Positions 22,639 to 39,346 of a stretch of 64,000 nt of DNA are shown in pieces. The number at the start of each line of letters is the position of its first letter. The stretch's first letter is position 1. Position numbers and translations under genes: made by a program. This stretch comes from Microbulbifer celer (GTDB lineage: Bacteria > Pseudomonadota > Gammaproteobacteria > Pseudomonadales > Cellvibrionaceae): the NCBI RefSeq assembly GCF_020991125.1, contig NZ_CP087715.1, forward strand, positions 2,445,501 to 2,509,500, in the 5' to 3' direction. Under the pieces are notes generated by a model. It searched no databases. It was not told the DNA's origin and saw only the letters and a program-made list of their open reading frames with translations.

Positions 22639-22987
22639 AGTGTTCACCTCTTATGATAGTTATTGTGCTGCTACATCGTTTAACGGGCGACAGCGGCAAA
22701 ACCAACCCCGCACACTCAACCCGCAGCTCTCACATCTCGGTCACATCTCGGTTTAAACGCCGCGAGCGTAGCACGCAGCCCCGAAATGCCCCCGTACCAC
22801 TTTGTTTTCCCGACGTCCCACTTGTGCCGCGGTGCAAACTGGAACCGACCCGACTGAGAAAACCAGGGAAAACTATCACAACAGCTAATTTCAATAATAA
22901 ATATCAATGTCGCACTGCTGGTCATATTCCGTCATTAGGATTAACGACCAATAACCAGCAGTCACGGAGTGGCGCAAGGACACCCCA
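22639..22987. promoter_or_regulatory. Divergent control region between sugar permease and ECF sigma gene
   Basis: This 349-bp non-coding stretch must hold the promoters for the leftward permease and the rightward sigma factor gene. It contains a tandem 11-bp direct repeat (TCACATCTCGG at 22730-22740 and 22741-22751) followed by GTTTAAAC, an 8-bp palindrome, about 90-115 bp upstream of the permease ATG. An AT-rich stretch at 22870-22960 precedes the sigma gene. No RNA gene was recognised. Confidence 0.5.
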
Positions 22988-23539
22988 GTGCCCGTCAACG
23001 AAGCCATGGACAACACAAACCTCGCCTATCACGCCCTGTTCGACGAGCTTTCATCGGAGAGGCCCAGGTTGCTGCACTTTATCCGCAACCGTGTGCGCGA
23101 CCCCAACGATGTGGAAGATGTCTACCAGGAAGCCATGCTGCGACTCGCCCGACAAATCCAGGGCAGCCCCTGGCCCGACCAGCCAGTGAGCTACCTGTAC
23201 CGAATCATCATCAACGTCATCAACGATGATCTGCGCCGCAGCCGCCCCATGGACAACTTCGATGAAATCGATGGCGGCGAGGGGCTGCCTGGCGATCTCC
23301 CGCCGCCGGATCAGCAATTGCACGACCAACGCTGCCTGGCCCTGGTCAGCAAAGAACTGAATGCGCTGCCACCGCACACCAAAACCATCATCATCATGAG
23401 AAAGCTGCACGGAATGACCAATATCGAGATTGCCCGCCGCATGGGCTTCACCGCCAAAGGGGTGGAAAAGCAACTCAACCGGGCCCTGCGCGCCATTGAA
23501 GCTTCGCTGGCCAAACAACTGGACCACCACAGCGACTAA
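22988..23539 (+). CDS. ECF RNA polymerase sigma factor, FecI-type
   Basis: A 183-residue sigma-70 family protein with only regions 2 and 4. Region 2 covers about residues 20-85 (VRDPNDVEDVYQEAMLRLARQI), and region 4 about 115-175 (ALPPHTKTIIIMRKLHGMTNIEI then RRMGFTAKGVEKQL). The start is GTG 22988, supported by AAGGA at 22976-22980 seven nt upstream; an ATG at 23006 would remove six residues. A fecR gene follows after 32 bp, so this is a cell-surface-signalling sigma factor controlled by FecR. The likely regulon includes the nearby TonB receptors. Confidence 0.9.
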   Translation: MPVNEAMDNTNLAYHALFDELSSERPRLLHFIRNRVRDPNDVEDVYQEAMLRLARQIQGSPWPDQPVSYLYRIIINVINDDLRRSRPMDNFDEIDGGEGLPGDLPPPDQQLHDQRCLALVSKELNALPPHTKTIIIMRKLHGMTNIEIARRMGFTAKGVEKQLNRALRAIEASLAKQLDHHSD

Positions 23540-23571
23540 CTCGCGCACCCAGCTCCGGAGGCAAACAGACT

Positions 23572-24552
23572 ATGCACCGCAACCAGAAACTCAGCCGCCA
23601 CGAAGAAGAACGTATCTACCGCTGGTTAGTCCACGGCGACGCCGAAGCCGCCAGTGCCAGCGATCGGGATCACTTCAATGCCTGGCTCGAACAGACTCCC
23701 GCCCGCAAGGCAAAGGCCCGTTCCGTCAACAACCTCTGGAACCACCCCGAGTTCCACCAGGCAGTCACCCTCATGGCCAGCAGCGAGGCCGCCAACCCCA
23801 GCCGCCCCAGAGCCTGGCAGCGCGGCAGCCGCCTGCGCGGCGCACTGAGTGTGGCCGCCTGCGTACTGGCCGTAGTGGCCAGTACCCAATTGTTGCTGGA
23901 CAACACACAACCGGCCCCCGCAAGCCAGGTCTACCGCACCGCCCACGGCCAGACCGCGCACCATACCCTGAGCGACGGCAGCCAGCTGGACCTGAGTGCC
24001 AGCGCCCGCCTTGCGGTGGAGTACGGCGAGCACGCGCGACAGGTCCGCCTGTACGACGGCGAAGCCCGCTTCAGTGTGGCCAAGGATCGCCAGCGCCCGT
24101 TCACCGTCGAATCCCGTCACGCCACCATGCGCGCCCTCGGCACCGTGTTCGAGGTGGACCAGCGCAGTGGTATGACCGAACTGGTGGTACTCGAAGGTAC
24201 CGTCGCGGTACACCCGCTGGAATCCCCGCAGCGACGTGTGGAAGTTACCGCCGGCCACCGGGTCCGCATCGGCGAGCAACGCCTGGCCAAGGTGGAAAGC
24301 TTTGATCTCAAGGAATACCGCAGCTGGCTCGACGGCCAGGTACAGGCCGACAAGCTGCCGCTGGCGGAACTGCTCACCGAACTCAACCGCTATGCAGAAA
24401 AACCAATCGTCGCCCGCGGCGGCGCCGCCCGGCTACCGGTCAGTGGCAGCTTTGCCCTGGACAAGATGGAGAGCAATATCGAAATCCTCGCGCGCCTGCA
24501 CCGCCTGCAGGTAGAGCACACCGCGGATGCCGTGGTACTGCGCGAGCAATGA
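23572..24552 (+). CDS. FecR family anti-sigma / sigma regulator
   Basis: A 326-residue inner-membrane regulator. Cytoplasmic residues 1-80 hold the conserved RIYRWLVHGDAE motif and a tryptophan-rich helix (FNAWLEQ, VNNLWNHPEF) that binds the sigma factor. A single membrane segment lies at about 87-105 (LSVAACVLAVVASTQLLL). The periplasmic part has the FecR domain (TLSDGSQLDLSASARLAVEY near 127, GEARFSV, TVFEV, GTVAV) and a short STN-like end (LTELNRYAEKPIVA). It relays a ligand signal from an outer-membrane receptor to the sigma factor. Its stop is only 6 bp from the stop of the convergent STN-containing receptor. Confidence 0.9.
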   Translation: MHRNQKLSRHEEERIYRWLVHGDAEAASASDRDHFNAWLEQTPARKAKARSVNNLWNHPEFHQAVTLMASSEAANPSRPRAWQRGSRLRGALSVAACVLAVVASTQLLLDNTQPAPASQVYRTAHGQTAHHTLSDGSQLDLSASARLAVEYGEHARQVRLYDGEARFSVAKDRQRPFTVESRHATMRALGTVFEVDQRSGMTELVVLEGTVAVHPLESPQRRVEVTAGHRVRIGEQRLAKVESFDLKEYRSWLDGQVQADKLPLAELLTELNRYAEKPIVARGGAARLPVSGSFALDKMESNIEILARLHRLQVEHTADAVVLREQ

Positions 24553-24558
24553 GAGGGG

Positions 24559-27500
24559 TCAGAAGTCGTAGCTGAAGCGCAGCTCGTAGCGGCGCCCTTG
24601 TTGGTAACGTAAAAACGTCTGCCCACCCTGCTGGTAGTGGTGGTCGTCATCCAGCAGGTTTTCGACCGCAAAAGCGATGCTGGCATCGGCTAACAGCGGT
24701 CGGTTGTAAGCCAGAGACAGGGTGCCGCGGGGGCGGCGGTATACCGAGGGCACGTCGAAGGTATTACTGACGATATACAGCTCGCCGCCGGATTGTTGAT
24801 AAGTCAGCGACAACCGCTGGCCGCTGTGCAGGTGCTGATAGCGCAACTGCACACTGCCGAGATACTCCGGCTGCCCCTGCATCGCCCGTTCACCGGATTC
24901 GCGCCCCACCTCCGCAGGAATGTCCACTTCGGAATCCAGTCTGGCAAAGCTGGATTTCACCGACAGCTCGTGAGCCTCTGCCCACAGGCGCCGCCAGTCC
25001 AGCTCCAATTCGTAACCGTAGAGGGTGGCCGCCTCCGTATTGACGTAGGTGAAGACATTGAAGGTGCGATCGCTGGAGATCACCGGATCAAAAAATACCC
25101 CCTCAATGGCACTGTCGATGGATTTGTAAAACCCCAGCAACTTGGCTCGTACACCGCGCTCCTCGTCCTGCCACTGCCAGCGCAGATCCCAGTTTTCTGC
25201 CCACGCCGCCTCCAGGTTGGGGTTGCCGGTCATTTGGATACGCAGCTCCACATCCTCGTAGCGCCGCGGCATCAATTCATTCACCCCCGGCCACACGGCG
25301 GTTTCGCTGTAGCCCAGGTGCCACTGTTGCGAGTCCGAGGGCGAGTAGCGCAGGGCGGTGGAAAACAGATCGGTGCGCTCATCCAGCAACGGCACCCAGG
25401 CCTCCGGCGCCGCGTCCCAGAAATCCGCCCGCACCCGGTCGCGCTCGTGGCGCGCGCCCAGCAGCCACTGCCAACGGTGCCGGAAATGGAAATCCGCCAG
25501 CAGGTAGCCCGCGCGGTTGCGGTGTTCCGAGGCGTAAAAACCACCATCCAGCGCCGGTGGCGTCAGCCCCAGGTCGGAGACGTTATCCAGCAGAAAGCCA
25601 TCCTCTCCCGGCAGGCCGACAATATTATCCGGGGTGAGAATCTGCGCGGGATCGTTCTGTTCCATCAATACCTGATCCGCATCGATATCCCCCTTGGCGA
25701 TAAAGGTGTAGTCCAACAGGTAGCCGTCCTGGCGCGCCCGCAGCGCGTCCAGTCCCCACTTTACCTCGCCGGACCAATCCGCCCCCAGTGACCAGCTGGT
25801 AGCCAGGCTGAAGCCCGCGCTCAAGGCTTCCTCCTCCATCGCCTCCCAGCCCACCCCGAAACCTTCGGAGCCGGTCTCAAAGCGGTAGGAGCCGTTCTGC
25901 TGGCGGTGGTAGCGGTAGCTCACATCGTAGGGGCGCTGGTAATCGGAGTGGGCGCTGGTCAGGTGCCAGTTTGCCCCCAGCTCATCGTCCGCACCCAGCG
26001 TGTGGCTGCCATATAACTGCCCCAGGGCCATCTGCCGCTCGGTCCAGTTAAACAGGCTGCGCAGGGTTTCCTCGCCGTTTCCCAGCGTGCTGCCGTTAGC
26101 ACTGAAAGCCTCGGAGAGGATCTGCTGGCTGTGGTCGGTGCTCTGGCGCAACAGCAACAGATTGGCGCCAACATGCTGGCGCTCGTCAAACCCGTAGCCC
26201 AGGGCCAGCAAGCCACTGACATTGACGGTGTGATCCAGGCGCCGGTGGCGGGAGGCCTCGCTGGCATACAGGGTGTCCGCCCCAGTCTCGCCACCCTGCC
26301 CCATATCCTGGCGAACCGTACTGCGACGCTGCAATACGCTGGATTCCACCGCCAGCTGCTGCCAATCAGTCTGGTACCCCAGAGCACCGCTCAGGCCCCA
26401 GCGATGTTGCCCGGCTCGCCAGGCGCGGCCTCCGCTGATATGAGCCAGGGTATCGGCGCCAGCATTGCCGGTGCGCAGGGCATAGTCCGTGGGAATGGCC
26501 TCCCCCGCCGCCTTCCGCGGCCCCTCGGGCCACACATCCGGATGGCCCAGGTGGGCGCTGTCGGCAATCACCGCGGGCAAATCGCGGCCGCCATCGTCCA
26601 CCCCCAGCCAGTCCTGCGCGCCCACATGCCCGCGCAGTACCGCTTCGCCACTGGTGCCGCTGCGGTAGGCTCCGCCGGTCACCAGGGTAAGCTGGTTCTG
26701 CTCGGGAATACGGCGGGTTTCAATATTCAGGACCCCGGCGCTGGCACTACCCGGGGCATCGGCGAATACGGATTTGTGCAGGTCCACCTGGTTGAGAATA
26801 TGCACCGGGAAAATATCCAGCGGTACCCGCTCGCTGGAAGGGTCCAGGCTCGGTATGGCGGCGCCATTCAAACGCACGGATTGATAGCGCCCACTCATAC
26901 CGCGAATCACCGCGTAGCGCTGCTGCTCCATTTTTACCCCGGACACCAGTGCCAGTGCCGATGCGAGATCGGTAATACCCAGGTGCTGGATATCCTGCAA
27001 CGCCACCACCGCATCGGCGCCGCCGGCGTAACTGCCGTAGCGGCCATCTTCACTGAGCGTGTCACCGGGGCGATAGCGGCGGCCCTCTACACGCACTTCT
27101 GAAAGCTGCGCTGTTGGCGGTGTGGGTTGTACGGCGGCTCCCCCTGTGGACGTCCTCTGCGCTTCCCGGAATACCACCAGTGTCCCATCGATTATGGAAA
27201 ACGCCAGGCCGTGAGGTGCCAGCAGCTGGCGCGCGCGGACTTCAAAGCGCTCACAGGCCGTTGGTATTGACACCTGCCGCCCTTCTACAAGATCCGGGCT
27301 GGTCACCAGCCGATACCCGCCCTCGGCGCTCAGTTGCTCCAGGGCGCGCATCAGTGACGCCGGGTTGATATTGCGACTTTTGTTATTGTTGTTGTGAAAA
27401 GTACAGCCTTCCGTATCCGCCGACACCTCATTAACTGTGTGCGCGGCCACCTGCCCCGCAGCAAAAATCAGCCCCGGCACACAGAGCAACAGATACGACC

Positions 27501-27657
27501 GCGCCAGCGCGCGGATTAAGATCGGGCAGGGAATATTCAGAAGCAACAACCCCGGAGAGCGCTTTATGGATTTTTCTATGCCAGCGAATGGCCATGCTGG
27601 CAGAGGGGCGTTGCAGAAAAATGACAAACGGACGGGCGGCAACGCGAATCTCGTCAC
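24559..27657 (-). CDS. TonB-dependent receptor with N-terminal STN signalling domain
   Basis: A large (1032 aa as drawn) outer-membrane receptor. A hydrophobic signal segment (YLLLCVPGLIFAAGQVAA) precedes an STN domain at about 95-165 (INPASLMRALEQLSAEGGYRLV), used to signal to FecR. The plug is near 190-330 (RYAVIRGMSGRYQSVRLNG, LDIFPVHILNQVDLHKS), and the barrel ends in LRFSYDF. The start is uncertain: GTG 27657 gives an unusually long leader and abuts a repeat element, and TTG codons near 27545 are alternatives. It shares plug and early-barrel motifs (DWLGxDDGxRxLP) with the receptor at 33921-37190, so the two are paralogues. It is the likely sensory receptor for the adjacent FecI/FecR pair. 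Ligand unknown. Confidence 0.87.
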   Translation of the reverse strand: MTRFALPPVRLSFFCNAPLPAWPFAGIEKSIKRSPGLLLLNIPCPILIRALARSYLLLCVPGLIFAAGQVAAHTVNEVSADTEGCTFHNNNNKSRNINPASLMRALEQLSAEGGYRLVTSPDLVEGRQVSIPTACERFEVRARQLLAPHGLAFSIIDGTLVVFREAQRTSTGGAAVQPTPPTAQLSEVRVEGRRYRPGDTLSEDGRYGSYAGGADAVVALQDIQHLGITDLASALALVSGVKMEQQRYAVIRGMSGRYQSVRLNGAAIPSLDPSSERVPLDIFPVHILNQVDLHKSVFADAPGSASAGVLNIETRRIPEQNQLTLVTGGAYRSGTSGEAVLRGHVGAQDWLGVDDGGRDLPAVIADSAHLGHPDVWPEGPRKAAGEAIPTDYALRTGNAGADTLAHISGGRAWRAGQHRWGLSGALGYQTDWQQLAVESSVLQRRSTVRQDMGQGGETGADTLYASEASRHRRLDHTVNVSGLLALGYGFDERQHVGANLLLLRQSTDHSQQILSEAFSANGSTLGNGEETLRSLFNWTERQMALGQLYGSHTLGADDELGANWHLTSAHSDYQRPYDVSYRYHRQQNGSYRFETGSEGFGVGWEAMEEEALSAGFSLATSWSLGADWSGEVKWGLDALRARQDGYLLDYTFIAKGDIDADQVLMEQNDPAQILTPDNIVGLPGEDGFLLDNVSDLGLTPPALDGGFYASEHRNRAGYLLADFHFRHRWQWLLGARHERDRVRADFWDAAPEAWVPLLDERTDLFSTALRYSPSDSQQWHLGYSETAVWPGVNELMPRRYEDVELRIQMTGNPNLEAAWAENWDLRWQWQDEERGVRAKLLGFYKSIDSAIEGVFFDPVISSDRTFNVFTYVNTEAATLYGYELELDWRRLWAEAHELSVKSSFARLDSEVDIPAEVGRESGERAMQGQPEYLGSVQLRYQHLHSGQRLSLTYQQSGGELYIVSNTFDVPSVYRRPRGTLSLAYNRPLLADASIAFAVENLLDDDHHYQQGGQTFLRYQQGRRYELRFSYDF

Positions 27658-27659
27658 TC

Positions 27660-27743
27660 GTCATTCCGGCGAATGCCGGAATCCATCACCACGGAGCTGG
27701 ATTCCGGATCAAGTCCGGTATAACGCTACTGGCCGGGAATGAC
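27660..27743. repeat. 84-bp interspersed repeat with GTCATTCC terminal inverted repeats
   Basis: The element begins GTCATTCC and ends GGAATGAC, an exact 8-bp terminal inversion. An internal palindrome ATTCCGGC-GAAT-GCCGGAAT spans 27664-27683, and a diverged inner copy (GGATTCCGGATCAAGTCCGG) follows. This layout matches GTCATTCC-type interspersed repeats common in proteobacterial intergenic DNA. Only one copy is visible here. It lies directly upstream of the receptor gene. Confidence 0.75.
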
Positions 27744-27773
27744 TCCGTACTGGCGTAAATAATTACAGCGCGA

Positions 27774-27802
27774 GAAAAAAGGCGCAGCCCAAAGGGCTGC
27801 GC
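27774..27802 (-). terminator. Intrinsic terminator after the 410-residue secreted protein gene
   Basis: A perfect 9-bp stem, GCGCAGCCC/GGGCTGCGC, loop AAA, with an A-run on the left that reads as a T-run on the minus strand; 37 bp past the stop at 27839. Confidence 0.88.
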
Positions 27803-27838
27803 AAGGGGGACTCTGATTGTTGTGTTAGGGGGCAACAA

Positions 27839-29071
27839 TCAGTTACAAGCGGGCGCGCTCCAGAATGAAGCGGTAGAGAAGCCAGTAGCGCTGCCAGAGG
27901 CCGGCAGGTGCATGCTGGCAGAAGTATTGGCGTTACCGGCGGAGCAGCTGTACTCAAGCGTAGTGAATACCGTGGAACCACCGGTGTAGGCAGTGGAAGT
28001 ATCGTCACACACACCGGTGTAGTTGGAGTCGATTACCACGTTTTCGAAAGAAGCATCGGTGCCTTCTTTCAACTTGAACGGTACATCAATGGAATCGCCA
28101 GCTTTATTCAGCGTAAGAGTCACATTTTCCACCATGCCTTTGGCGCGTGGGGTAGCACCGTAAGTATTGGGATTGTTGGCCAGCTCAAACGCATGGTCGG
28201 CGCCGTTGTCCTGCAGAATGCTGACGTTGGTCAGTGAACCCTGGAAACCTTCATCCCAGTCCACACTATCGTCTTCATTACAGGTCAACCACAGGTTGGA
28301 AACGGCAGCATTACCACCGAAGAACTCGATACCGTCGTCCTGGTTGTTGTGCACATGCACGTTGGAAATAGAGGTAGAGTCGTTGACGGTGTACAGGGTC
28401 AGACCGTTGATTTCGCTAGCGGTCGCGACTTCGTGACCGCCCTCGGCGATCACCACGTAAGACAGGGTACCGCTACTCATGCTGGTGTTCAGGTACTTAC
28501 CGCCACCGTAGTAATAACCGCCGGCCACGCCTTCCATTTCACAGGTATCCACACCGGCAGAGCTCGGGCAGTTGTTGCTTTCACCGAAGCCCGCGAGAAC
28601 CAGGCCGCCCCACTCACCGGAGCCATCCATATTGTCGTCCAGCGAAGAAAATACAATCGGATTGAGGTTGCTACCCTGAGCATCAATCTGTGCACCGCGG
28701 GAAATCACCAGTGCCGAGTTGCTTTCCACCGCACCGGCGATTTGGGCACCGGCTTCGATCTGCAGTACGGTTTTGTCTACGGTGGCGGGGTTGGCGTTCT
28801 GGGTGTTGCCGTTACCGACGACGACGATACCCGGCAGGGTCCAGACGATTGGATCACCGTCTTCGTTCTCAACTGCAAGAACAACAGTATCGTCTTCAAC
28901 AATACTGGCAGGCAGATCACAACGAACGTAATCACCGCCGTTAAAATTCACTTCATCAATATAGGTCCCATTTTCGTTACACTCGCCGTCAAGACCGAGG
29001 GTCGTTTCCGCAAAGGAACCGGCAGACAAGAGCATCAAGCTCAAAGACAAGATTGTCTTTTTCATTTCCAT
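27839..29071 (-). CDS. Secreted beta-helix-like protein of unknown function, single module
   Basis: I do not recognise a named function. The 410-residue product has a clean signal peptide (KKTILSLSLMLLSAGSFAE) and no lipobox. The mature part is Asn, Asp and Gly rich, with short repeated hydrophobic strands suggestive of a right-handed beta-helix. Landmarks, in order: IVWTLPGIVVVG, IEAGAQI, ALVISRGAQI, GEWGGLVLAGFGE, GVAGGYYYGG, HNNQDDGIEFFGG, EDDSVDWDEGFQGSL, DHAFELANN. Eight Cys residues suggest disulphides. The same landmarks recur three times in the large lipoprotein gene upstream. Context with two TonB receptors suggests a secreted ligand-binding partner; that is inference. Confidence 0.75.
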   Translation of the reverse strand: MEMKKTILSLSLMLLSAGSFAETTLGLDGECNENGTYIDEVNFNGGDYVRCDLPASIVEDDTVVLAVENEDGDPIVWTLPGIVVVGNGNTQNANPATVDKTVLQIEAGAQIAGAVESNSALVISRGAQIDAQGSNLNPIVFSSLDDNMDGSGEWGGLVLAGFGESNNCPSSAGVDTCEMEGVAGGYYYGGGKYLNTSMSSGTLSYVVIAEGGHEVATASEINGLTLYTVNDSTSISNVHVHNNQDDGIEFFGGNAAVSNLWLTCNEDDSVDWDEGFQGSLTNVSILQDNGADHAFELANNPNTYGATPRAKGMVENVTLTLNKAGDSIDVPFKLKEGTDASFENVVIDSNYTGVCDDTSTAYTGGSTVFTTLEYSCSAGNANTSASMHLPASGSATGFSTASFWSAPACN

Positions 29072-29341
29072 TCACTCCAAATATAAAATTGAAAAGTAAG
29101 AAAAACCGAAAAATCAAACCTGAAAAACCAACCAGGCAAATCCACCATACCCATACAAAATTTCGATAACATTACCAAAACAGAAAAATAAAAATAAAAA
29201 TGAACTAAAAAAAACAGAAAACCCATAAAATATAGAGACGGAAAAAACAGAAACGTGCGACATTTATTCTAATGAATATTTCCTTACAAAAACAAAAAGC
29301 CGGGCGAAAGCCCGGCCAACAAAAGAATCAATTATAAACCA
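29072..29341. other. AT-rich intergenic region
   Basis: The 270 bp between the two secreted-protein genes are markedly AT-rich with A-runs at 29085-29260, unlike the GC-rich surroundings. It holds the terminator of the lipoprotein gene and, presumably, a separate promoter for the 410-residue protein gene. No gene is seen. Confidence 0.6.
29289..29316 (-). terminator. Intrinsic terminator of the large lipoprotein gene
   Basis: Stem GCCGGGC/GCCCGGC with GAAA tetraloop at 29299-29316, and A-rich sequence on the left reading as T-rich on the minus strand, 25 bp past the stop at 29342. Confidence 0.85.
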
Positions 29342-32300
29342 TCAATCATCAACAATATCGAAACCAGCCTCAATCGGAATAAAGTAATCCAAAACACCCA
29401 GATACTCCGACTCTTTTACAAACCCCATATCAACGGTCTTAGAGGAAGAATAATCTGATTCTGCGGACCCGAGATTTACGACATTTGCCACCGGGTACTT
29501 TATAGCCCTCCATTCCTCAAATACCGCCACACCTTCCAGATCATTATCAAAATCAGTATCCGTAGTATCGTCAGAGAGTGCCCAGTCGATCCGGTAAATA
29601 TCATGATTCGCACGTCCGGGAACAGATACGGTAGCAGAGTTTGCTACATTTCCAGGAATCCCGATAATTTCAGTAACACTAAAGTTATCCTGTACAGCAT
29701 TGTTGAATACCATGTTATTGGAGAATTCTGTGCAGTCTGCTGCCACCTGATTAAAAACAATTTCCGTACCCAAAAGTGGTGCAGAGGTTTCATCGACTCT
29801 CAAGCAATAATCCATCATTTCCCCATAGCCGGGAGAATGAGGGTTGGGGTTTTTATCTTCCTCTTCAAAATCCGCGCTGTCGGTTCCCATCAAGCTGTTG
29901 TATAGAAACAGGCCTGAACCGCCATTCAGTTCCGCCATCGCACTTAAACCATCGCCAAAATCGTGTGGGTCAATTTCATACCCCTCAAGGGTCAGGTTGG
30001 CAATTGTGGGCATGGAACGAGGCAGATCATCTTCATGCCCGGGCGCTCCATTTTGCCCCCGAATAGCCACCTGGGAAAAGTACGGCTTTCCATCGCCACC
30101 CTCAGACACCATTTTGAAGTCAGGGATATCATCCGCATCATCCTGTTCATTGGCCCAAACCAGGCTGACGAACTGCATTGTGCCCTGATAACCGTGATTC
30201 CACCGGATATGGCTGCCCCACACCGGTTCCGGATCATTCACTTGGAGGTTGCGAATATTAACTGCGCCGCCATCAATTGCGATTGCAGAAACACCATAGT
30301 CCACAGGGTTCAGGTATTCCCAATCTCCACTAAAGTACAGGTTTTCAACCAGCCCACCTCGACCAACGCTGTTGAGTTGGAAAAACCCACCGAGCATATG
30401 CATATTTTCTATATGCAAGTTGCCGTGATCGTTATCGTAGCCACCGTAATAACCGAATTCACCTTTGATATTGCAGATACGGCTACCGGCTTCGGCCATG
30501 GCATCCGGACACTGATTATTGCGGCCAAACCCATCGACAATCACACCGCGCCAAGGAAGTACATCTTGGTCTAGTGGTTCACCAACCGTAAAGCTATTTA
30601 CTCGTTCAAACTCGAGCAACCCGAGCATACTAACAGGACCAAACGCATCTGGTTCCTCCTCGTCGACAATGCTCTCGCCACCAATCACCAGAAGCTCTCC
30701 GCCCCGGGTTACATGCAAGCCACCATTGTGTGATGACATAACAATCGCGGAAGCCTCTATACCCAGAGTTACCGGATCGGCTTTCATCGCCTCCACTTGG
30801 GCCAGGTCGGTAATTTCCAGGTGCCCTTCACCCACACGAACCAGGCCATTCAATAACCACAGCGTAGGCAGAGGGTCCCGTTCAACCTCAAGCTCGCGGG
30901 GAAAGAAATTTCCCTCATCATCCAGCACGGTAACCTGCACAACGTCCACCACTGGCTCGCCGTTTTCTACAGCTACTGCGTCCCGGCCGGTATAAGTGGT
31001 GAGTACGAAATCTTCGGTGATGGTGCCGCGCAGGCCACACACGTTGAAGCGAGGATAGTGATCACGACCTTCCGTTATGTTGTGGCCATCCGGGTCAACC
31101 ACTACATACCGGGTTCCGGTGGTGTACACATAATCGTCTTCCAGCACGCCCTGAAAATCACACTCCGCCGCCAGCAAAACCCCTACAGAATCACTCCAAC
31201 CCAGATACCAGTCATCCACGGAATCCCGCACCGAGCCCATATAGCCCACACCGGCATTCAGGTAGTTGGCGCTGGCGCCGGCAAGGGAAAAATCAATGCT
31301 GGATTCAATGCCCGGAATATCCTCACCCGTGGCAACAAAGTTGCTGTCCAGTACTGCGGCTACTTCATATACGCCGCTCTGGCTCTGGGTGGTGGCAGCG
31401 TAGTCCTGGCCGCTCTCTTCTTCTTCAGCGGAGACGGTGGCGTCACAGTCCAGCACCACGTTGTCAAAGTGGATCTGCGCCGGGTCGGTCGATTGCAGGC
31501 TGTTGGTGGCCGGGTCGTCGATATCCAGGCAGGTGTTGAAGTCCGCCACTACCGAGTTGTACAGCAACAGGCCGCTGCCCTGCTCCAGCAGGATGGCGGT
31601 GTCGGCACTATCGGAACCCTTGGCGGTAATGTTCGCCAGTACCGGGCGCGAGCGCGGCGCGGCATCGTGGTCCTCTGCGCGGTTGCGACCGTGCAGGGCG
31701 TGGCCATGGCTGGCCTCGCCGGCCTGCAGAATGGCGTACTGCAGGGTGCCGCGGTAACCGTTGCTCCACTGCACCTGGTCACCGGCGGCATCCGCTACCA
31801 GCAGGTTTTTGATATTCGCCGCGCCGCCGTTCAGGGCCAGGCCCGCACTGGCGGAATCCGCAATATCCAGGTAATGCACTGCACCGGCTTCACTGACCTC
31901 CTTCAGGGTGAGTGCCGGCTGGCCGTTGCCGGCATTCAGCAGGCGCAGGTAGTTGATATCCACAAACTGACGCTGAGCCAATGCGCACAGCTCATCGCTG
32001 TCGCAGCTGTCGGCCAGGCCATTGATGGTGATACCGCCCCAGCCGCTTTCGCCGTCGGCAGGTGCCAGCTCCACCGACCGGGTACTGCTGCCCTGCACAC
32101 GGAGGGCCACACCGGGGTTGACGATAATGGATGCACTGCCGGCCAGCTGGACCCTGGAATCACTATCCAGAATCACATTGTGGGGCGCTTGCAGGCGCGC
32201 CTGTTGCTGCGCGGCTTCCAGGTCGGCAAAGTCTTCCCCCAGGGTGAGTGCGCCATTGATGCGCCAGACAATCAGCTCACCATTGATGTCGTTATCAAAG

Positions 32301-33856
32301 TAGAGGTTGCCCGCGTGCTGGCCCTGGAGTTCACACACGCGGTAAGTGCCACTGCCAATGATCACCGTTTCCTCCAACAGGGTGCCGGCGCCGTAGCAGT
32401 CCGCATAGGTGAGCGCAAGACCGAAGCGCTCCACCAGAGAACCGGATGCTGGCAGGCTGCCACCGGTAACCCCGGCAATGGCGGTATTGCTGATGGCCAG
32501 CTCCGGGGTCAGGTCCGGATTGAGGGTGTAAATATTTTCACCCGCCGCCAACACCTGTTGCGCGTAGTTGCTGCCATCCTCTGCGGCTCTGTTGGTTTCC
32601 GTGCAGTAGAGGGCGCTGTTGGCCAATGCCACCTGGGTGTTGCCATCGGCAATCTCCAGGCAGTGGTTAAAGCCCTGCACCACCGCATTATCAATACGGA
32701 TACTGCCACCACCGGCCAGTGCAATTGCGCTGCCGGCATTGAGGGATTGATCCACCAGGGTGAGACCGGAAATCGACACGCCGGGGGATTCGCCAGTATC
32801 CAGCCCGGCCCAGGCACCGCCGGTCATGGCACTCTGCTCGCCTTGCAGGGCCGCGCCTTCCCCCTGGTGGTAAATAACACTGTTATTTACCGTGCCCGAG
32901 AAACCGCTGTGCCAGTGCACGGCGTGATCCCGGTTGCCCTTGGCCAACAGGCTCAGCTCCTGTGTGCCACCGTTCAGGGTGACACCGGACTTGGCGCTGT
33001 AAAAGACACCCTGAGGGTCAAACGTCTGCCCCAGCAGCGGCGCGTTGAAGGTAATGGCTGCATCCAATGTGGCACCATCGACCTCGCCCCCGGCTTCCGC
33101 GGCGAAACCATTGAAGCCAGTGCGGAAAGCAGTCTGGCTCAGATTGTCTTTGCGGAGCAATACGACTTTCTCGAGGCTCTCCGTCTGGGAGAGGCCACCA
33201 AAATAGCCCCACTCGCCCTGGATATTACAGAAGTTGTCGGCGCTGACGCTGCTGCCGCAATCCGGGTGGTAGCCAAAGCCATTGACCACAACCCCGCCCC
33301 ATTCGCCGCCGCCGATATTGTCGTCATCCACGGAGGCAATATCGGCACTCAGCCGCGCGTTGCGGTGTACCACCACCACGGCACCGGGTTTGGCGTAGAG
33401 GGTTTCGTCAGTTTGCAACAAGTACACCGGGTCGGCCTGCAGCTCTGCCAGGGTGGCGTAACTTTTGCTGAGGCCGATTTCATAGGTGCCGTCCAGCACC
33501 CATACCAGTGGCTGGTAATTGTGGCTGCGCTTCAGGATCACCTCTTCCTGCTGGCCAATATCCGTATTGAGTACGCAGGCCTGGGTTTCTACACCGTTGA
33601 CCATGATCGGGTCGGTGGGTGTGCCCACTACGCCGTTGTCGGCAAGTTCACACTGCTGCAGGGCCAGGTCCTGGGGTTGCTCCTGAGCAACTTCATTGGA
33701 GACGTCGCCGGAGCAGCCACCCAGTAACAGGGCGATACTACCGGCGAGGAAGGCGCGGCTGAGCAGGCTCCGGCCAAACAGCGGTGCAAGGCGCTGCGGT
33801 AGTGCTGCGCCGGGGCGGCCCGGGGCGGCTGCCGATGTTTTTTTGTGATGCAACAT
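29342..33856 (-). CDS. Large surface lipoprotein with three beta-helix-like modules
   Basis: A 1504-residue predicted lipoprotein: a basic N-region, hydrophobic stretch FLAGSIALLLGG and lipobox Cys (LLGGC followed by SG, so not an Asp+2 inner-membrane signal). The body contains three diverged copies of the module seen in the neighbouring 410-residue protein, marked by EWGGVVVNGFG (near 33290), GWGGITING (near 32030) and PWRGVIVDGFG (near 30540). Each is followed by a W-x-x-G-[FY]-x-G motif (HWHSGFSG, QWSNGYRG, RWNHGYQG) and C-[LI]-x-[IV] segments. ATG 33856 has AGGTG 5 nt upstream. It follows the receptor gene by 64 bp, so probably one transcript. Function unknown; an extracellular ligand-binding partner of the receptor is plausible. 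Confidence 0.78.
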   Translation of the reverse strand: MLHHKKTSAAAPGRPGAALPQRLAPLFGRSLLSRAFLAGSIALLLGGCSGDVSNEVAQEQPQDLALQQCELADNGVVGTPTDPIMVNGVETQACVLNTDIGQQEEVILKRSHNYQPLVWVLDGTYEIGLSKSYATLAELQADPVYLLQTDETLYAKPGAVVVVHRNARLSADIASVDDDNIGGGEWGGVVVNGFGYHPDCGSSVSADNFCNIQGEWGYFGGLSQTESLEKVVLLRKDNLSQTAFRTGFNGFAAEAGGEVDGATLDAAITFNAPLLGQTFDPQGVFYSAKSGVTLNGGTQELSLLAKGNRDHAVHWHSGFSGTVNNSVIYHQGEGAALQGEQSAMTGGAWAGLDTGESPGVSISGLTLVDQSLNAGSAIALAGGGSIRIDNAVVQGFNHCLEIADGNTQVALANSALYCTETNRAAEDGSNYAQQVLAAGENIYTLNPDLTPELAISNTAIAGVTGGSLPASGSLVERFGLALTYADCYGAGTLLEETVIIGSGTYRVCELQGQHAGNLYFDNDINGELIVWRINGALTLGEDFADLEAAQQQARLQAPHNVILDSDSRVQLAGSASIIVNPGVALRVQGSSTRSVELAPADGESGWGGITINGLADSCDSDELCALAQRQFVDINYLRLLNAGNGQPALTLKEVSEAGAVHYLDIADSASAGLALNGGAANIKNLLVADAAGDQVQWSNGYRGTLQYAILQAGEASHGHALHGRNRAEDHDAAPRSRPVLANITAKGSDSADTAILLEQGSGLLLYNSVVADFNTCLDIDDPATNSLQSTDPAQIHFDNVVLDCDATVSAEEEESGQDYAATTQSQSGVYEVAAVLDSNFVATGEDIPGIESSIDFSLAGASANYLNAGVGYMGSVRDSVDDWYLGWSDSVGVLLAAECDFQGVLEDDYVYTTGTRYVVVDPDGHNITEGRDHYPRFNVCGLRGTITEDFVLTTYTGRDAVAVENGEPVVDVVQVTVLDDEGNFFPRELEVERDPLPTLWLLNGLVRVGEGHLEITDLAQVEAMKADPVTLGIEASAIVMSSHNGGLHVTRGGELLVIGGESIVDEEEPDAFGPVSMLGLLEFERVNSFTVGEPLDQDVLPWRGVIVDGFGRNNQCPDAMAEAGSRICNIKGEFGYYGGYDNDHGNLHIENMHMLGGFFQLNSVGRGGLVENLYFSGDWEYLNPVDYGVSAIAIDGGAVNIRNLQVNDPEPVWGSHIRWNHGYQGTMQFVSLVWANEQDDADDIPDFKMVSEGGDGKPYFSQVAIRGQNGAPGHEDDLPRSMPTIANLTLEGYEIDPHDFGDGLSAMAELNGGSGLFLYNSLMGTDSADFEEEDKNPNPHSPGYGEMMDYCLRVDETSAPLLGTEIVFNQVAADCTEFSNNMVFNNAVQDNFSVTEIIGIPGNVANSATVSVPGRANHDIYRIDWALSDDTTDTDFDNDLEGVAVFEEWRAIKYPVANVVNLGSAESDYSSSKTVDMGFVKESEYLGVLDYFIPIEAGFDIVDD

Positions 33857-33920
33857 AATTTCACCTGATGGTCTTGAATTTTTTGGGGCACACGCGGCCC
33901 GAAATTGTGTGTTGTATTGA

Positions 33921-36900
33921 TCAGAAATCGTAACTGGCCTTGAGCTTGAAGCGCCGCCCGCTGGCGTACTGCAGGTATGGGGTGTTGTAATCCTCGTACT
34001 CCAGTACATGCTCTTCGTCCAACAGGTTATCCACCGAGGCGGAGAGCGAAAGGCCGCTCAGGAAGTTCTTTTTGTAGATCAGCCGCAGGTCGTTGTAGGC
34101 CAGGCGATACACATTGGCAGGGGTAGCATTGTTACCGGCACTGGCCACCGCCAACTCCTCTCCCTTGCGGTTGAACACCAGGGTCACTTCCTGGCCGGTA
34201 TCCACATGGTCGTAGCCCAGTTGCAGGTTGGCGATATATTCCGGCTGCCCCTGCAGCGGGCGCTCGATCTGCTGGGCAAACACGTGACTGCCCTCGGTAA
34301 CTTCCACCTCGGAGGTGATGTCTGTGTAGTTGAACTGCACAAACAGCTCGTGGCCCTGATCGGTACCCAACACAAACTCCCGGCGCATATCCAGCTCGAT
34401 GCCCGTTACCTCGGCGAACCCGGCATTGTCGAAGGTGTAGTAGTCGAATTGATCACCGATTCGATCAAACCGGTTTTCAATCGCGTTGGTAATGTCTTTG
34501 GAGAAAAGCGCCAGGGTGATGGACTCGGTATCGGACGGATACCACTCCAGGCGCAGATCCATATTCTCGATATCCGCCGGCTTTAACTCCGGGTTGCCGC
34601 GGTAGCGCTCCAGGGTTTCGATATCGGTAAAGGTGCGCGGCATCACCTCGAAAATTTCCGGCCAGCTGACGGTTTCCGACCAGGCCGCGCGCAGTTGCCA
34701 GGCATCGTTAAACAGATAGGTGAAGCTGACCGAGGGGGTATTGCGCTCCTCGTCCAGCAATTCTGTCAAGGGCTCCGGGGTGTAGGCATATTGCTCACCT
34801 TCCAGTAGGAAAGTCTCGCGACGTGTGCCCAGGTTGATTTTGAGTTTTTCGTAGAGGTTGGCTTCCAGCAGGGCGTAGTTGGCAGTGAAGTCCTGTTCCA
34901 CCAAATAGCTGTCGCCGGTAAAACCTACATCATCGTCTGGCAGTTTATTGCCAATACTGAGATAGATACCACTGTCGTCTCCTCCCAGAGAAGTAAAATC
35001 CTCTGGCGCATATACTTGGGTAGGATCTGGGTTTTCCAGCTGTTCTTCGGGCAGCTGATTGGCGCCCTTGATCGTGTAATACTGGTATACGCCGTCGCGG
35101 TCCCGTTGTAACGCATTGGTTCCAGCCTTGAACGTCAGGGAAATGCCGTACAGATCTTCGATGGGCAACTCAACATCCACGCGATGCCCGCTGTTGTCTT
35201 CTTCCATGGCTTCCCAGACGTTGTACTGGCCACCGACGCTGCCATCAAAGATCTGATAGCTGTTACGGTGAGAACTGCGATAGGTATAGCGGCTGGCGTT
35301 GGGACGGTCGTATTCCGTGGCCGCTTCCATCAGCTGCCAATCGACACTCAATTCTCCCAGGTAGCGGGAAGGCAACGCGATCGCGTGCTCGCCCCACAGT
35401 TGATGGCTTAGCAGCTGCTCCTCGATCCAGTCTACGCGCTGGGATTTGATGCGCTCATAGGTCTCCCGCTTGATCGCGTCAATATCATTTTCCTGCAGTG
35501 GAGTGTCAGAACTCGGTGGCTGGTAACTGGTATCAATCTCCGCAGAGCTAGTGGTATGGCGCAGGGCAATATTGTTCAGGCCCAGTTGATGCCGGTCGTT
35601 GATATCCCACTGCAGGTTGAGCATGGCACTGAGATCGATCACATTGTTGGTGTCCTGCACCTCGCTCAGATCACGGAGCATAATGCGTTCGTGCTCGCCT
35701 TCACCCGTTTTGAGGTAGCGGAAATTGGTTTTGGTGTTGCTGCTCCATTTGTTGGCGTAGCGCAGGGCGCCGATCACGCCCAGGCGCTGGGTACCCAGCT
35801 CCCAGCTGTCGCCACCACTGAAACTCATGGAGGAATCGATGGGGGCCTCGCCGTATTGGATCTTATTGTGTGGAATACTCTGGCCCATGGCGATAATGGC
35901 GTCTTCATCGAAACCGCCGTAGCCACTTTCACCGCTTTTCATATCCACCCACTTGTTCAGGGTGAGCTTCAGCTCCTCCGGCAGTTCGCGGCTACCATCG
36001 TCCATACCCAGCCAGTCGCGGTCGCCCTCGGTGCCAGACATCAGCAGGTCATCACCGTGCATATCGCCGCGAGTGGCGGAGTAGGAAAATTTGAAAAAGC
36101 CCTGTTCGGGGATATCCCGGGTTTTCATGCTGATATGACCGGCGGTGGCACTGCTGGGCACATCGGCGGTAGCACTTTTCTGCAGGCTCAGGCCCTGCAT
36201 GATGCCGGCGGGAAAAATATCCAGCGGCAGGTCGCGGCGGGCGGGATCGGTGCTGGGGAGGGTGGCACCGTTTAAATCCGTCGACTGGTAGCGGCTTTTC
36301 ATACCGCGCACCACCGCGTAGCGATCATCTTCCAGGGAGACCCCCACCACGCGCTTGAGCGCGCTGCTGACCATGGAATCGTCAAAGCGGGAGATCTGGG
36401 TAAAGTCGATGCTGTCCACCACGGAGGAAGAAATACGCTCGATCTCGATGGGGTTGCCGGGCAGGTAGCGGCCCACCACCTGTAACTCTTCGATCGCACC
36501 GCCTGTGGCCGTATTGTTCCCGGGGCCAGCGAACACATCTGCCGTACTCATCGCCACATCCACTGCCAGGTTCATCTGCGGCAGTACCCGCAGCCGGTTA
36601 AGCTGGCTGGGGCGGTAATCACTGTGGGCAAGTTGCAGTTGATAGACGCCGGGGGGCAGTTCCAGCTCAAATTTGCCGTAGCGGTCGCTCACCGCACTTA
36701 CGTCACTGCCGACCACGCTCACGGTGACGTTGCGCAGCGGGGCCTGGTTATCCTTGCTGAGCACGGTGCCCTGAATCAGGCCCGGAGCGAGGTTTTCCTG
36801 AGACTCAATCAGGCCGGTAATTACACCACCGTCCTGGTGCAATTGATCCATATCCACTCGCTGCAGGGAGTGGGTGGTTTCACCACTGTCGGAAGCGCGA

Positions 36901-37190
36901 TTGACGGTAACCAGTGCCGCCTGGTCTTCACTGATGGAGAAGTCGTAGGGAATTTCCTCCTCGCCCATACGCAGCACCAGATGGTGGCGGCCGCCCGTCA
37001 GGTCGCTGTGCCAGAATTTTTCCCCGGTGTTGGTGGTGCCGATCTGCTCGCCGTTCAGCAGCACTTCTGCCGCACCCTGGGGCTTGCCGTCTGTGAATAC
37101 TTCCAACCTGAGTGCCGCGGCCTGCGCCTGGCTGCCGACGGCAAGCCCGATGGCGCTGGCCAGTAGCGTTTTAGAAAGTCGAGATCCCAT
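33921..37190 (-). CDS. TonB-dependent receptor with carboxypeptidase-regulatory-like domain
   Basis: A 1089-residue outer-membrane receptor. The signal peptide ends near SQAQAA. Two small beta domains follow: about 25-95 with no clear family, then a carboxypeptidase-like regulatory domain at about 140-215 (IQGTVLSKDNQAPLRNVTVSVV, SDRYGKFELELPPGVYQLQL). The plug lies near 235-370 (RYAVVRGMKSRYQSTDLNG, PLDIFPAGIMQGLSLQKS), and the barrel ends LKASYDF. It lacks STN, so it is probably the transport receptor while its STN-containing paralogue at 24559-27657 signals. It heads a likely two-gene operon with the 1504-residue lipoprotein. The substrate is unknown; carbohydrate is possible given the adjacent cellulases. 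Confidence 0.87.
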   Translation of the reverse strand: MGSRLSKTLLASAIGLAVGSQAQAAALRLEVFTDGKPQGAAEVLLNGEQIGTTNTGEKFWHSDLTGGRHHLVLRMGEEEIPYDFSISEDQAALVTVNRASDSGETTHSLQRVDMDQLHQDGGVITGLIESQENLAPGLIQGTVLSKDNQAPLRNVTVSVVGSDVSAVSDRYGKFELELPPGVYQLQLAHSDYRPSQLNRLRVLPQMNLAVDVAMSTADVFAGPGNNTATGGAIEELQVVGRYLPGNPIEIERISSSVVDSIDFTQISRFDDSMVSSALKRVVGVSLEDDRYAVVRGMKSRYQSTDLNGATLPSTDPARRDLPLDIFPAGIMQGLSLQKSATADVPSSATAGHISMKTRDIPEQGFFKFSYSATRGDMHGDDLLMSGTEGDRDWLGMDDGSRELPEELKLTLNKWVDMKSGESGYGGFDEDAIIAMGQSIPHNKIQYGEAPIDSSMSFSGGDSWELGTQRLGVIGALRYANKWSSNTKTNFRYLKTGEGEHERIMLRDLSEVQDTNNVIDLSAMLNLQWDINDRHQLGLNNIALRHTTSSAEIDTSYQPPSSDTPLQENDIDAIKRETYERIKSQRVDWIEEQLLSHQLWGEHAIALPSRYLGELSVDWQLMEAATEYDRPNASRYTYRSSHRNSYQIFDGSVGGQYNVWEAMEEDNSGHRVDVELPIEDLYGISLTFKAGTNALQRDRDGVYQYYTIKGANQLPEEQLENPDPTQVYAPEDFTSLGGDDSGIYLSIGNKLPDDDVGFTGDSYLVEQDFTANYALLEANLYEKLKINLGTRRETFLLEGEQYAYTPEPLTELLDEERNTPSVSFTYLFNDAWQLRAAWSETVSWPEIFEVMPRTFTDIETLERYRGNPELKPADIENMDLRLEWYPSDTESITLALFSKDITNAIENRFDRIGDQFDYYTFDNAGFAEVTGIELDMRREFVLGTDQGHELFVQFNYTDITSEVEVTEGSHVFAQQIERPLQGQPEYIANLQLGYDHVDTGQEVTLVFNRKGEELAVASAGNNATPANVYRLAYNDLRLIYKKNFLSGLSLSASVDNLLDEEHVLEYEDYNTPYLQYASGRRFKLKASYDF

Positions 37191-37400
37191 GTCTCCCCCA
37201 CTTCAAACCTGAAAAATAAAAAATCGATGGCGTCGCCGTGCGGGCCATCGTGACTGATTGTTGTCGGGCGTTTTTATCGGATACGCGCTAAGCAACGCCT
37301 TCAAAGACGATGCGGGGCGCAATCGGCGACAGGAAAAGCGTGAAGATTTGGTGAAGGTTTTATGGACGGGCTATCAACAAACTGGTGTTGATAGAAATAA

Positions 37401-37466: not shown

Positions 37467-39254
37467 TTATTCCTCCAACGGCGGGTAGGCATTTTCTACC
37501 AGCACCTGGAAGGCTTCCGGGAACCAGCGGCCCGCGTGCGGAGCGTTGTCCAGGGCACCGGTGCCGACGGAGCTGTCGTAGCGGTTCGGGGCATATGGAT
37601 CACACATGGGGTCGTGCCGCTTGGCCGGATCGTTGGGGTCCGGTGTGAAGTTGGGATCGCTCACACCATCGGACTCCCCTTGGGGTTTCACCCACACATA
37701 CGCGTCGATGCCCGGCGCCGGTTCTGCCTGCGGGCGGAATCCCACACCACCGGGCTGGTTACACCAGTTGCCGCGATGCACCCGGCGGTCGATACGGCTC
37801 TCACTCACATAGGTGTTGAGGTCGGTACTGGTGGACGGGCCGGTGGGCCGATCCGCGCCACCCCACCCATTACGGCCGGTATCAATCAGCATGCCGAGGG
37901 TTTCCGGAGCACCGCGGGCAACCATGGCTTCGCGCCAGTCCTGGGCAAAGGTGAGCTCTTCCAGGTAGTCGTTCCACTCGTAGAAATCCGCTGCACGTAC
38001 CGGCTGGCCACCCACGTTCAGGGTCGGATCCGGCAGGTAAGGTTCTTCCACCGGAGTATAGTTGGAGGAGTTGGTGACGAAGCCGGCAACGCTGTCCCAG
38101 CCTGCATCGGTGGACTCCACCACATCGCCGATCAGGTCGATTGCAGGACCGAAGTTGCTGCTCCAGCCAAGCCAGCCCGAATGGGCGATGTCCACGTAGG
38201 AATAAACATTATCCAGCGGCGCCAACTGGTTCAGCGCGTAGCGGATACCGTCGCGATAACCACCGGGGCCATCCGCTTCCTGACAGTCCGGCAGGCTGAT
38301 ATTGGTAATCAGGTTCGGCAGCGAATCCACTTCGATGATAGTGACGATATTTATATCGGCGTAAGCCGGGTCTGCGAGGACCTCTACCAGCGGATCGATG
38401 TATTCGGTCTGGTAGCGCTCAAAGCCATTCTCAGCGATCAGCAGTTCACCGTTAGACGCAAGCGCGGCGCAGTCGCGGTTGGGTAAGTTGTACACCACCA
38501 CCATAAACAGGTCGGCGCCCTGGGCCAGTGCCGCATCGAGATGTCCACGCAGGCCGCGACCATCGGTGAGTGCGCCAATGCGGTCCATCCACACCGCGGA
38601 GCTCACGTCGGCAATCGCCGCGCCGCCGGGCTCGTTCATGGCATTCTCGGCCCAGTCCGGATTCACATACCAGTTACTGGACGCAGTGAAGGGATTATCC
38701 AGACGGCCACCGGAGCTGCCGCTACCACCGGAACCCGAGGAGCTGGAGCTAGAGCTGGATGAGCTGCCGCCGGACGAACTCGAAGACGAACTCGAAGAAG
38801 AGGAGCTTGAGGAAGAAGAGCTGGAAGAGGAAGAACTGCTGGACGAGCTGCCACCGGAAGAACTGCCGCCCTCGCCGTCTACGCTGATTTCCACTGCGCT
38901 CTGGCCACCGGGGAAGGCGACAAAACCAATGGTGACCTGGCCGCCCACGGGAATTTCATTATTGTAACCCGCGGAGGCGAGCACATAACTGCTGCCGTTG
39001 TGGGATTCGACAACACCGTTCCAGATATTATCGATATCCACCGCCATATCGAAAGACAGATTCCAGTCTGTCAGTGGCTCGGTGCCATCATTAACCACGG
39101 TGACTTCTGCCTGAAAACCACCACCCCAGTCGCTGACGATATTCATGCTCGCCTGTGCGGCCAGTGCCTGGGCACCCCACAACAGGGAGGCCACACTGCC
39201 GAGGCCCGCATACAACCATCGCCTGGTCGTATTTCTTTCTGTGAAAAAATTCAT
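37467..39254 (-). CDS. Secreted GH6 cellulase with CBM2 and polyserine linker
   Basis: A 595-residue secreted enzyme. A signal peptide (about 1-27) is followed by a CBM2 cellulose-binding module at about 30-125 (NIVSDWGGGFQAEVTVVNDG), a Gly/Ser linker of roughly 55 residues with long unbroken Ser runs, and a GH6 catalytic domain to the end. The GH6 motifs YNLPNRDCAA and TIIEVDSLPN carry the catalytic Asp residues known from GH6 enzymes; the C-terminal half contains WVKPQGESDG. It acts on beta-1,4-glucan outside the cell as an endoglucanase or cellobiohydrolase. ATG 39254 is preferred to the TTG at 39272. A GH5 gene lies immediately upstream. Confidence 0.93.
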   Translation of the reverse strand: MNFFTERNTTRRWLYAGLGSVASLLWGAQALAAQASMNIVSDWGGGFQAEVTVVNDGTEPLTDWNLSFDMAVDIDNIWNGVVESHNGSSYVLASAGYNNEIPVGGQVTIGFVAFPGGQSAVEISVDGEGGSSSGGSSSSSSSSSSSSSSSSSSSSSSSSSSGGSSSSSSSSSSGSGGSGSSGGRLDNPFTASSNWYVNPDWAENAMNEPGGAAIADVSSAVWMDRIGALTDGRGLRGHLDAALAQGADLFMVVVYNLPNRDCAALASNGELLIAENGFERYQTEYIDPLVEVLADPAYADINIVTIIEVDSLPNLITNISLPDCQEADGPGGYRDGIRYALNQLAPLDNVYSYVDIAHSGWLGWSSNFGPAIDLIGDVVESTDAGWDSVAGFVTNSSNYTPVEEPYLPDPTLNVGGQPVRAADFYEWNDYLEELTFAQDWREAMVARGAPETLGMLIDTGRNGWGGADRPTGPSTSTDLNTYVSESRIDRRVHRGNWCNQPGGVGFRPQAEPAPGIDAYVWVKPQGESDGVSDPNFTPDPNDPAKRHDPMCDPYAPNRYDSSVGTGALDNAPHAGRWFPEAFQVLVENAYPPLEE

Positions 39255-39302
39255 TATCGCTATCCGTTCCAATTATTTTTATCGGAATATTTTTGCTGAA
39301 AG

Positions 39303-39333
39303 AATACCGGTGCCCTTGCGGGGCACCGGTATT
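39303..39333. terminator. Hairpin between GH5 and GH6 genes
   Basis: A perfect 13-bp stem AATACCGGTGCCC/GGGCACCGGTATT with 5-nt loop, 14 bp past the GH5 stop and about 50 bp before the GH6 start. On the minus strand it is followed by TCTTTC, a weak U-tract. It probably terminates or attenuates GH5 transcription ahead of GH6. Confidence 0.7.
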
Positions 39334-39346
39334 GTCGCGCGGGGAA

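Follow-up and report, generated by a model that had tools for sequence, protein, structure and literature searches.

A candidate ligand-sensing, sigma-controlled version of an ElpS/Cc0171-like TonB uptake pair in Microbulbifer celer

In Caulobacter crescentus the surface lipoprotein Cc0170, to which both PMC2996285 and PMC11208175 apply the name ElpS, is encoded beside the TonB-dependent receptor Cc0171; ElpS is induced by phosphate starvation and a functional interaction between the two proteins was judged probable (PMC2996285). Flavobacterium johnsoniae encodes the FI and FII lipoproteins, which were modelled on polygalacturonase, are induced by phosphate depletion, show 31–36% identity over 50–54% with the Caulobacter lipoprotein, and adjoin TonB-dependent transporters (TBDTs) carrying PF13715 (CarbopepD_reg_2) (PMC8115612). 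We describe here a six-gene cluster in a 64,000-nucleotide stretch of the Microbulbifer celer genome (contig NZ_CP087715.1, positions 2,445,501 to 2,509,500; hereafter the window), containing genes for an extracytoplasmic function (ECF) sigma factor, a FecR-type regulator, two TonB-dependent receptors, a secreted 410-aa protein (P0004), and a 1504-aa lipoprotein (P0005). A first-pass annotation of this DNA had proposed a new outer-membrane capture system, and this part of its account has to be given up because the receptor/beta-helix pair resembles both ElpS-Cc0171 and TBDT-FI/FII, each linked to phosphate starvation in print, with relatives that often lie beside phosphate genes. The pair is thus of a known, ElpS-like kind, in an arrangement that is unusual and occurs in the window's genus, and we lean towards regarding the cluster as a phosphorus-related TonB uptake pair of the ElpS/Cc0171 type that has come to sense its ligand and to be controlled by a sigma factor.

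The likeness to ElpS/Cc0171 lies in a module protein (the module being shared by P0004 and P0005) beside a receptor of the same type in the window, together with the order module-receptor-gspC-D-E-F in 9 of 80 related loci, and it is a likeness of description and gene position. The module protein in the gsp position in Phenylobacterium (L147), a member of Caulobacter's family, is 31% identical to the 410-aa protein. The window differs in its sigma/FecR genes, second receptor, and triple-module lipoprotein, none of which is described for Caulobacter in the sections of PMC2996285 drawn on here, and in having no type II secretion genes adjoining the cluster, whereas a second pair in the same genome does have them; furthermore, the window transporter gene is without a Pho-box-like site, in contrast to the phosphate-starvation induction of ElpS. 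Likened by description, FI/FII share with the window a lipoprotein beside a TBDT with a carboxypeptidase-regulatory-type domain, but their genes belong to a phoBR cluster or accompany one for a putative phosphodiesterase together with other low-phosphate genes, and the corresponding sections of PMC8115612 describe no FecI/FecR. The window also recalls FecI/FecR/FecA systems in having an ECF sigma factor, a FecR-domain regulator, and an N-terminally extended receptor side by side, although the sensor and the candidate transporter are separate paralogues and the STN domain is only weakly detected. As in the SusCD systems of Bacteroidota, a receptor with a CarboxypepD_reg domain is followed by a lipoprotein gene, but the partner has no SusD family match.

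The six genes are all in place as first annotated (Table 1), and the plug motifs read as common to the two receptors are literally present in both (RYAVIRGMSGRYQS / RYAVVRGMKSRYQS and DWLGVDDGGR / DWLGMDDGSR), the proteins being 34% identical overall. The FecR protein scores 125.7 bits against the NCBIfam FecR profile, below the equivalog cutoff of 385. In the candidate transporter the barrel match is above its cutoff and the Plug match below (19.3 vs 23.9), a TonB-box-like IEELQVVG is situated near residue 234, and the N-terminal CarboxypepD_reg domain is an addition to the earlier account. The lipoprotein gene starts 65 bp downstream of the end of the transporter gene; its open reading frame (ORF) as listed has 1555 codons' worth of residues (1555 aa), and use of the ATG at 33856 gives 1504 aa with the lipobox LLGGC.

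That the 410-aa protein and the lipoprotein are built on the same module is borne out by a profile (A1) of 12 rows, which matches P0004, itself one of those rows, at 5e-164, and P0005 in four pieces corresponding to three module copies (residues 84-504, 550-673 with 698-939, and 1038-1438). Neither protein has a Pfam match at E 0.01, SusD included, in agreement with the earlier remark that these partners are not SusD-like. The module is without a Pfam or NCBIfam model, PDB sequence searches also yielded nothing useful, and PF13229 (Beta_helix) is matched by one of the 12 module members, at 0.003. The predicted structure of the 410-aa protein (from 28 sequences; mean predicted local distance difference test score, pLDDT, 80; predicted template-modelling score, pTM, 0.83) contains numerous short strands, and Foldseek returned weak beta-helix neighbours such as polygalacturonase, AlgE6, and Pel9A, with one of 378 matches at E < 0.001 and query TM-scores no higher than 0.35 among the 50 listed. 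Judging from these structural matches, the module is presumably a right-handed beta-helix.

Co-occurrence of the module with this receptor subfamily, which the first-pass annotation had set as a check, proved extensive. Public genomes were scanned by module peptides, blind to receptors, yielding at least 593 matching stretches, 542 of which encode relatives, and the best 80 (3–22 kb long) were analysed. A receptor of the subfamily lies within 1 kb of the module and on the same strand in 64 of the 80 (45 module first, 19 receptor first), and about 4–6 kb away in nine more, where genes named as DUF3450, ExbB/ExbD, TonB, and TPR intervene. Seven stretches are receptor-less; in six of them the contig stops within the module or no more than 1.6 kb past it, leaving L114 as the one such locus with room to spare. 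Closer to the window, the module was found at E 1e-5 in 36 of 58 genomes (the window's own included), and of 41 stretches taken from the genus and order of the window, 39 have module and receptor side by side, the two non-adjacent cases (L044 and L063) being at record ends. Lipoproteins of this kind next to TonB receptors are found repeatedly in Pseudomonadota, Myxococcota, Acidobacteriota, and Bdellovibrionota.

Gene families neighbouring the pair in the 80 stretches were named by eye from sequence, with a profile check in part, and PstB was left out of the counts, its cluster having taken in long general ABC proteins. PstS, PstC/A, or PhoU genes are present in 19 stretches, a TonB/DUF3450-like (TonB-ExbB) block in 30, and GspC with GspD in nine; one or more of these groups is represented in 48 stretches, and the remaining 32 lack them all. 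Sigma or FecR genes resembling those of the window were not found in the 80 stretches (phmmer, 1e-8). The DUF3450-ExbB-ExbD-TonB-TPR block (by eye), whole or partial, stands beside the module in L076, L078, L093, and L119 among others, and suggests a dedicated energy system; one DUF3450-like protein had no NCBIfam match at 1e-20. The genes gspC-D-E-F follow the pair in L087, L092, L110, L111, L121, L127, L129, L147, and L150. Two of these loci, L111 and L127, have Pst and PhoU genes on the far side of the pair, so that a single stretch combines type II secretion with TonB and phosphate uptake. Within the window there is no TonB/ExbB or Gsp match.

Among 48 genomes of the genus, surveyed for receptors at 50% identity or more (in many genomes by scoring the best 16 candidates), the transporter receptor is present in nine and the sensor-type receptor in seven, always in the same cluster as the transporter (7/7). 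The six-gene block is complete and in the same order in seven of the nine transporter-bearing genomes, with sigma, FecR, and sensor genes together in the window cluster, L037-L040, L170, and, using the extra stretch L168, genome G016. The other two, G006 and G061, have the transporter and helix genes without a sensor-type receptor: the G006 cluster keeps the sigma gene and is without FecR, and the G061 cluster has neither, its best sigma match elsewhere being 29% identical. Eight flanking window genes, including two for cellulase-like proteins, were sought in six orthologous stretches (L036-L041) and none was found there. The architecture of the cluster is well supported, and the candidate roles first assigned to the receptors, one sensing and the other transporting, fit both the confinement of the STN-type receptor to the cluster and the existence of the transporter without it in G006 and G061. 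Additional copies of the 410-aa gene occur as two short pieces and one full-length copy in G016 and as two full-length copies in G066 (L041:11455-14482, L170:11474-14270).

The sensor receptor probably arose by duplication in the window's lineage, since the two window-type receptors form one group with a Shimodaira-Hasegawa-like approximate likelihood ratio test (SH-aLRT) value of 100 in a quick tree of 94 rows from this subfamily alone, midpoint-rooted for drawing. The nearest group on that drawing has mostly the same receptor-first order, and includes four Porticoccaceae loci (L100, L107, L122, L133) situated directly after Pst and PhoU genes.

A candidate ECF promoter element, TGTCGC-N16-CGTC, precedes three of the cluster genes (Table 1). 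There are 10 exact matches in the 4.35-Mb genome, these three standing before genes in the right direction, and the pattern read backwards has 45. Six of the seven sites outside the cluster fall within ORFs of at least 264 aa, and the seventh within one of 183 aa. In the cluster, the sigma-gene site lies in an overlapping 178-aa ORF, and the other two sites are in no ORF of 150 aa or more. The site before the transporter gene is exact in all eight sigma-bearing clusters (the window and seven others); in G061, which has no sigma orthologue, the corresponding position carries two mismatches (by eye). In eight orthologous stretches (160 kb) the exact matches number 15, three of which do not immediately precede a cluster gene, whereas 300 permuted motifs average 0.46 matches there (at most 6); 29 other genus stretches (575 kb) contain five. 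It is plausible, from the way this motif largely tracks the sigma gene, that the cluster is under sigma control, and we regard regulation by the cluster's own sigma factor as moderately supported.

Table 1. Genes and candidate promoter elements of the Microbulbifer celer cluster (window coordinates).
Feature	Coordinates	Strand	Evidence
Candidate ECF promoter element, 55 bp before sigma gene	22908-22933	+	exact TGTCGC-N16-CGTC
ECF (FecI-type) sigma factor, 183 aa	22988-23539	+	Pfam Sigma70_r2 48 bits, Sigma70_r4_2 44 bits, both above cutoff
FecR-type anti-sigma/sigma regulator, 326 aa	23572-24552	+	PF04773, 76 bits
STN-type TonB-dependent receptor, candidate sensor	24559-27657	-	Plug and OMP_b-brl_3 barrel model above cutoff
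410-aa secreted protein (P0004), one ElpS-like module	27839-29071	-	Sec-type signal peptide, no lipobox (by eye)
Candidate ECF promoter element before 410-aa gene	29237-29262	-	exact TGTCGC-N16-CGTC
1504-aa lipoprotein (P0005), probably outer-membrane, triple module	29342-33856	-	lipobox LLGGC, Ser at +2 (by eye)
TonB-dependent receptor, N-terminal CarboxypepD_reg domain, candidate transporter	33921-37190	-	TonB_dep_Rec 99 bits, CarboxypepD_reg 46 bits
Candidate ECF promoter element before transporter gene	37306-37331	-	exact TGTCGC-N16-CGTC

A phosphate connection is evident among the relatives. Pho-box-like sites, defined as TGTCA-N6-TGTCA with at most one mismatch within 400 bp upstream, are present upstream of 31 of the 64 module-receptor pairs. 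Random places in the same stretches average 2.8 sites, never exceeding 8 (200 draws), and the upstream regions of other genes there average 5.8, never exceeding 14 (1000 draws; 53 of 557 such genes have a site). Ten neighbour proteins were run against NCBIfam, and scores above the curated TIGR cutoff identify PhoB in L094, L099, and L120, PhoR in L094, and PstS in L128. In L106, L119, and L137 the regulator comes closest to PhoB without reaching the cutoff, and the one in L123 does not resemble PhoB. This link stops short of the window's genus, the chief weakness of a phosphorus reading, in which the ligand is argued from the relatives and not from the window cluster itself; by that analogy the ligand may be phosphorus-based, a proposal that is weakly supported. 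Pho control of the window cluster was considered and is not supported, the Pho-box proxy finding no site before the transporter.

The same genome has a second module-receptor pair. Apart from those of the window cluster, a genome search at E 0.01 identified a single module protein, a lipoprotein of 551 aa that adjoins the genome's third-best receptor relative. This pair is near gspC-D-E, giving it type II secretion neighbours as at elpS-cc0171-gspC, and between it and the gsp genes are electron-transfer-flavoprotein and ETF-quinone-oxidoreductase-like genes (L006:3957-7735, by eye). The second lipoprotein (L006:10835-12490) has Asp after the lipobox Cys (GCDSGG) at the position where the window lipoprotein has Ser, and Asp there is an inner-membrane retention signal in E. 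coli (PMC2996285).

Several observations weigh against a sensing, sigma-controlled, phosphorus-related uptake pair. PF07660 (STN) matches the sensor-type receptor at E 0.043 and 14.1 bits, below the cutoff of 28.4, and matches two of five orthologues scanned, which makes the STN label a weak point. The STN receptor also has a long stem in the tree, which was a rapid build with its root placed for display and its rows confined to the subfamily. The motif before the 410-aa gene is exact in five of nine clusters only, with one mismatch in G066, where sigma is present, and likewise in G061, which has no sigma orthologue, a pattern at odds with strict tracking of the sigma gene. Before the sigma gene itself it is exact in two of eight sigma-bearing clusters (the window and G066), and in the window none lies directly before the STN receptor gene, the nearest exact sites to that gene in G016 and G017 being 1.1-1.6 kb upstream. 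Allowing one mismatch gives eight sites in the window against a mean of 6.0 by chance, which is chance level; moreover, the motif counts are partly circular because the motif was first spotted by eye in the same upstream regions, and the orthologous clusters are not independent in them. As for phosphate, Pho-box-like sites occur before none of six transporter genes and before one of 30 second-locus genes in the genus, and there is no PstS, PstC/A, or PhoU match in the window, L006, or L036-L041. In Caulobacter, ElpS is still produced when cc0171 is deleted, cc0171 expression is alike in rich and poor media, and no intracellular phosphate change was detected on a shift to poor medium by a method whose sensitivity the authors call low (PMC2996285).

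A different ligand for the same architecture and sigma control, namely a metal chelate or haem captured by the beta-helix proteins, seems unlikely to us. The absence of Pho boxes before the genus copies speaks for it, as does the TIGR01785 haem-receptor model in so far as it matches both receptors, far below cutoff (39 and 62 vs 317 bits). FecI/FecR signalling, on which FecI/FecR/FecA systems are built, is moreover classically tied to iron. The Leptospira operon of LipL48 and a TonB-dependent receptor (TBDR), likened by description in that a lipoprotein and a receptor share one operon near TonB/ExbB/ExbD genes, differs from the window in being PerR-regulated and is tied to superoxide tolerance (PMC7567364); it would point to a metal ligand, and thus away from phosphorus, if LipL48 is a relative of the module lipoproteins. 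However, no metal-uptake gene is recognised in the cluster, no metal-uptake family appears among 24 neighbour clusters inspected by eye, and the relatives carry Pst/PhoU genes in 19 of 80 loci.

The cluster could instead belong to a polysaccharide utilisation locus in which the beta-helix proteins would act on a glycan, by binding or cleavage, and the receptor would take up its fragments, and to which the cellulase-like genes would also belong; we consider this quite improbable. Its appeal comes from the pectate lyases, polygalacturonases, and other glycan enzymes among the Foldseek neighbours and from the pair of cellulase-like genes at 37467-41284, which share the cluster's strand there, look GH6- and GH5-like by eye and encode long serine linkers. 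These matches are weak, however, and may reflect a common fold alone, no glycosidase or lyase family exceeds its threshold in the module, and the cellulase genes share the fate of the other tested flanks; as system members they were rejected on not being found in the six orthologous stretches. It is scarcely credible that the receptors, helix genes, and sigma/FecR genes are mere neighbours forming no functional unit, given a block conserved in order in seven of nine transporter-bearing genomes with flanks that differ from the window's in the six stretches tested, and a sensor not found outside it; no observation spoke in favour of that view.

We return to the ElpS/Cc0171-like pair, which would have been duplicated and rewired in one gammaproteobacterial genus. 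Computation supports its homology, conserved neighbourhood, and receptor relatedness, the confinement of the sensor, the tracking of sigma by the motif at the transporter, and the phosphate link of the relatives; sensing, transport, capture, sigma dependence, and ligand are what we infer, and they would combine as follows. The triple-module lipoprotein and the secreted 410-aa protein would gather or process the ligand at the cell surface, with the candidate transporter importing it using TonB energy, and the duplicated receptor would detect the same ligand. The N-terminal domain of this sensor, with FecR, would then release the ECF sigma factor, which would drive expression, through TGTCGC-N16-CGTC promoters, of the 410-aa gene, the operon of transporter and lipoprotein, and possibly the sigma gene itself. 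Our best guess for the ligand is a phosphorus-containing compound or polymer.

No publication uniting Microbulbifer, a TonB-dependent receptor, and FecR was found, and we make no wider claim of absence from print. Such lipoproteins beside TonB receptors recur in four phyla, yet their module has no Pfam or NCBIfam model, and its frequent proximity to Pst/Pho genes, TonB-ExbB blocks, or type II secretion genes gives the family a function that can be tested. A more tentative idea, which we hold to be possible but doubtful, is that a phosphorus-scavenging pair left the PhoB regulon for dedicated surface signalling via its own duplicated receptor; if so, uptake would be switched on by ligand met outside the cell and not by phosphate shortage inside. 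The sigma-controlled version would provide an on-switch with a defined candidate promoter motif, and thus a handle for finding the ligand.

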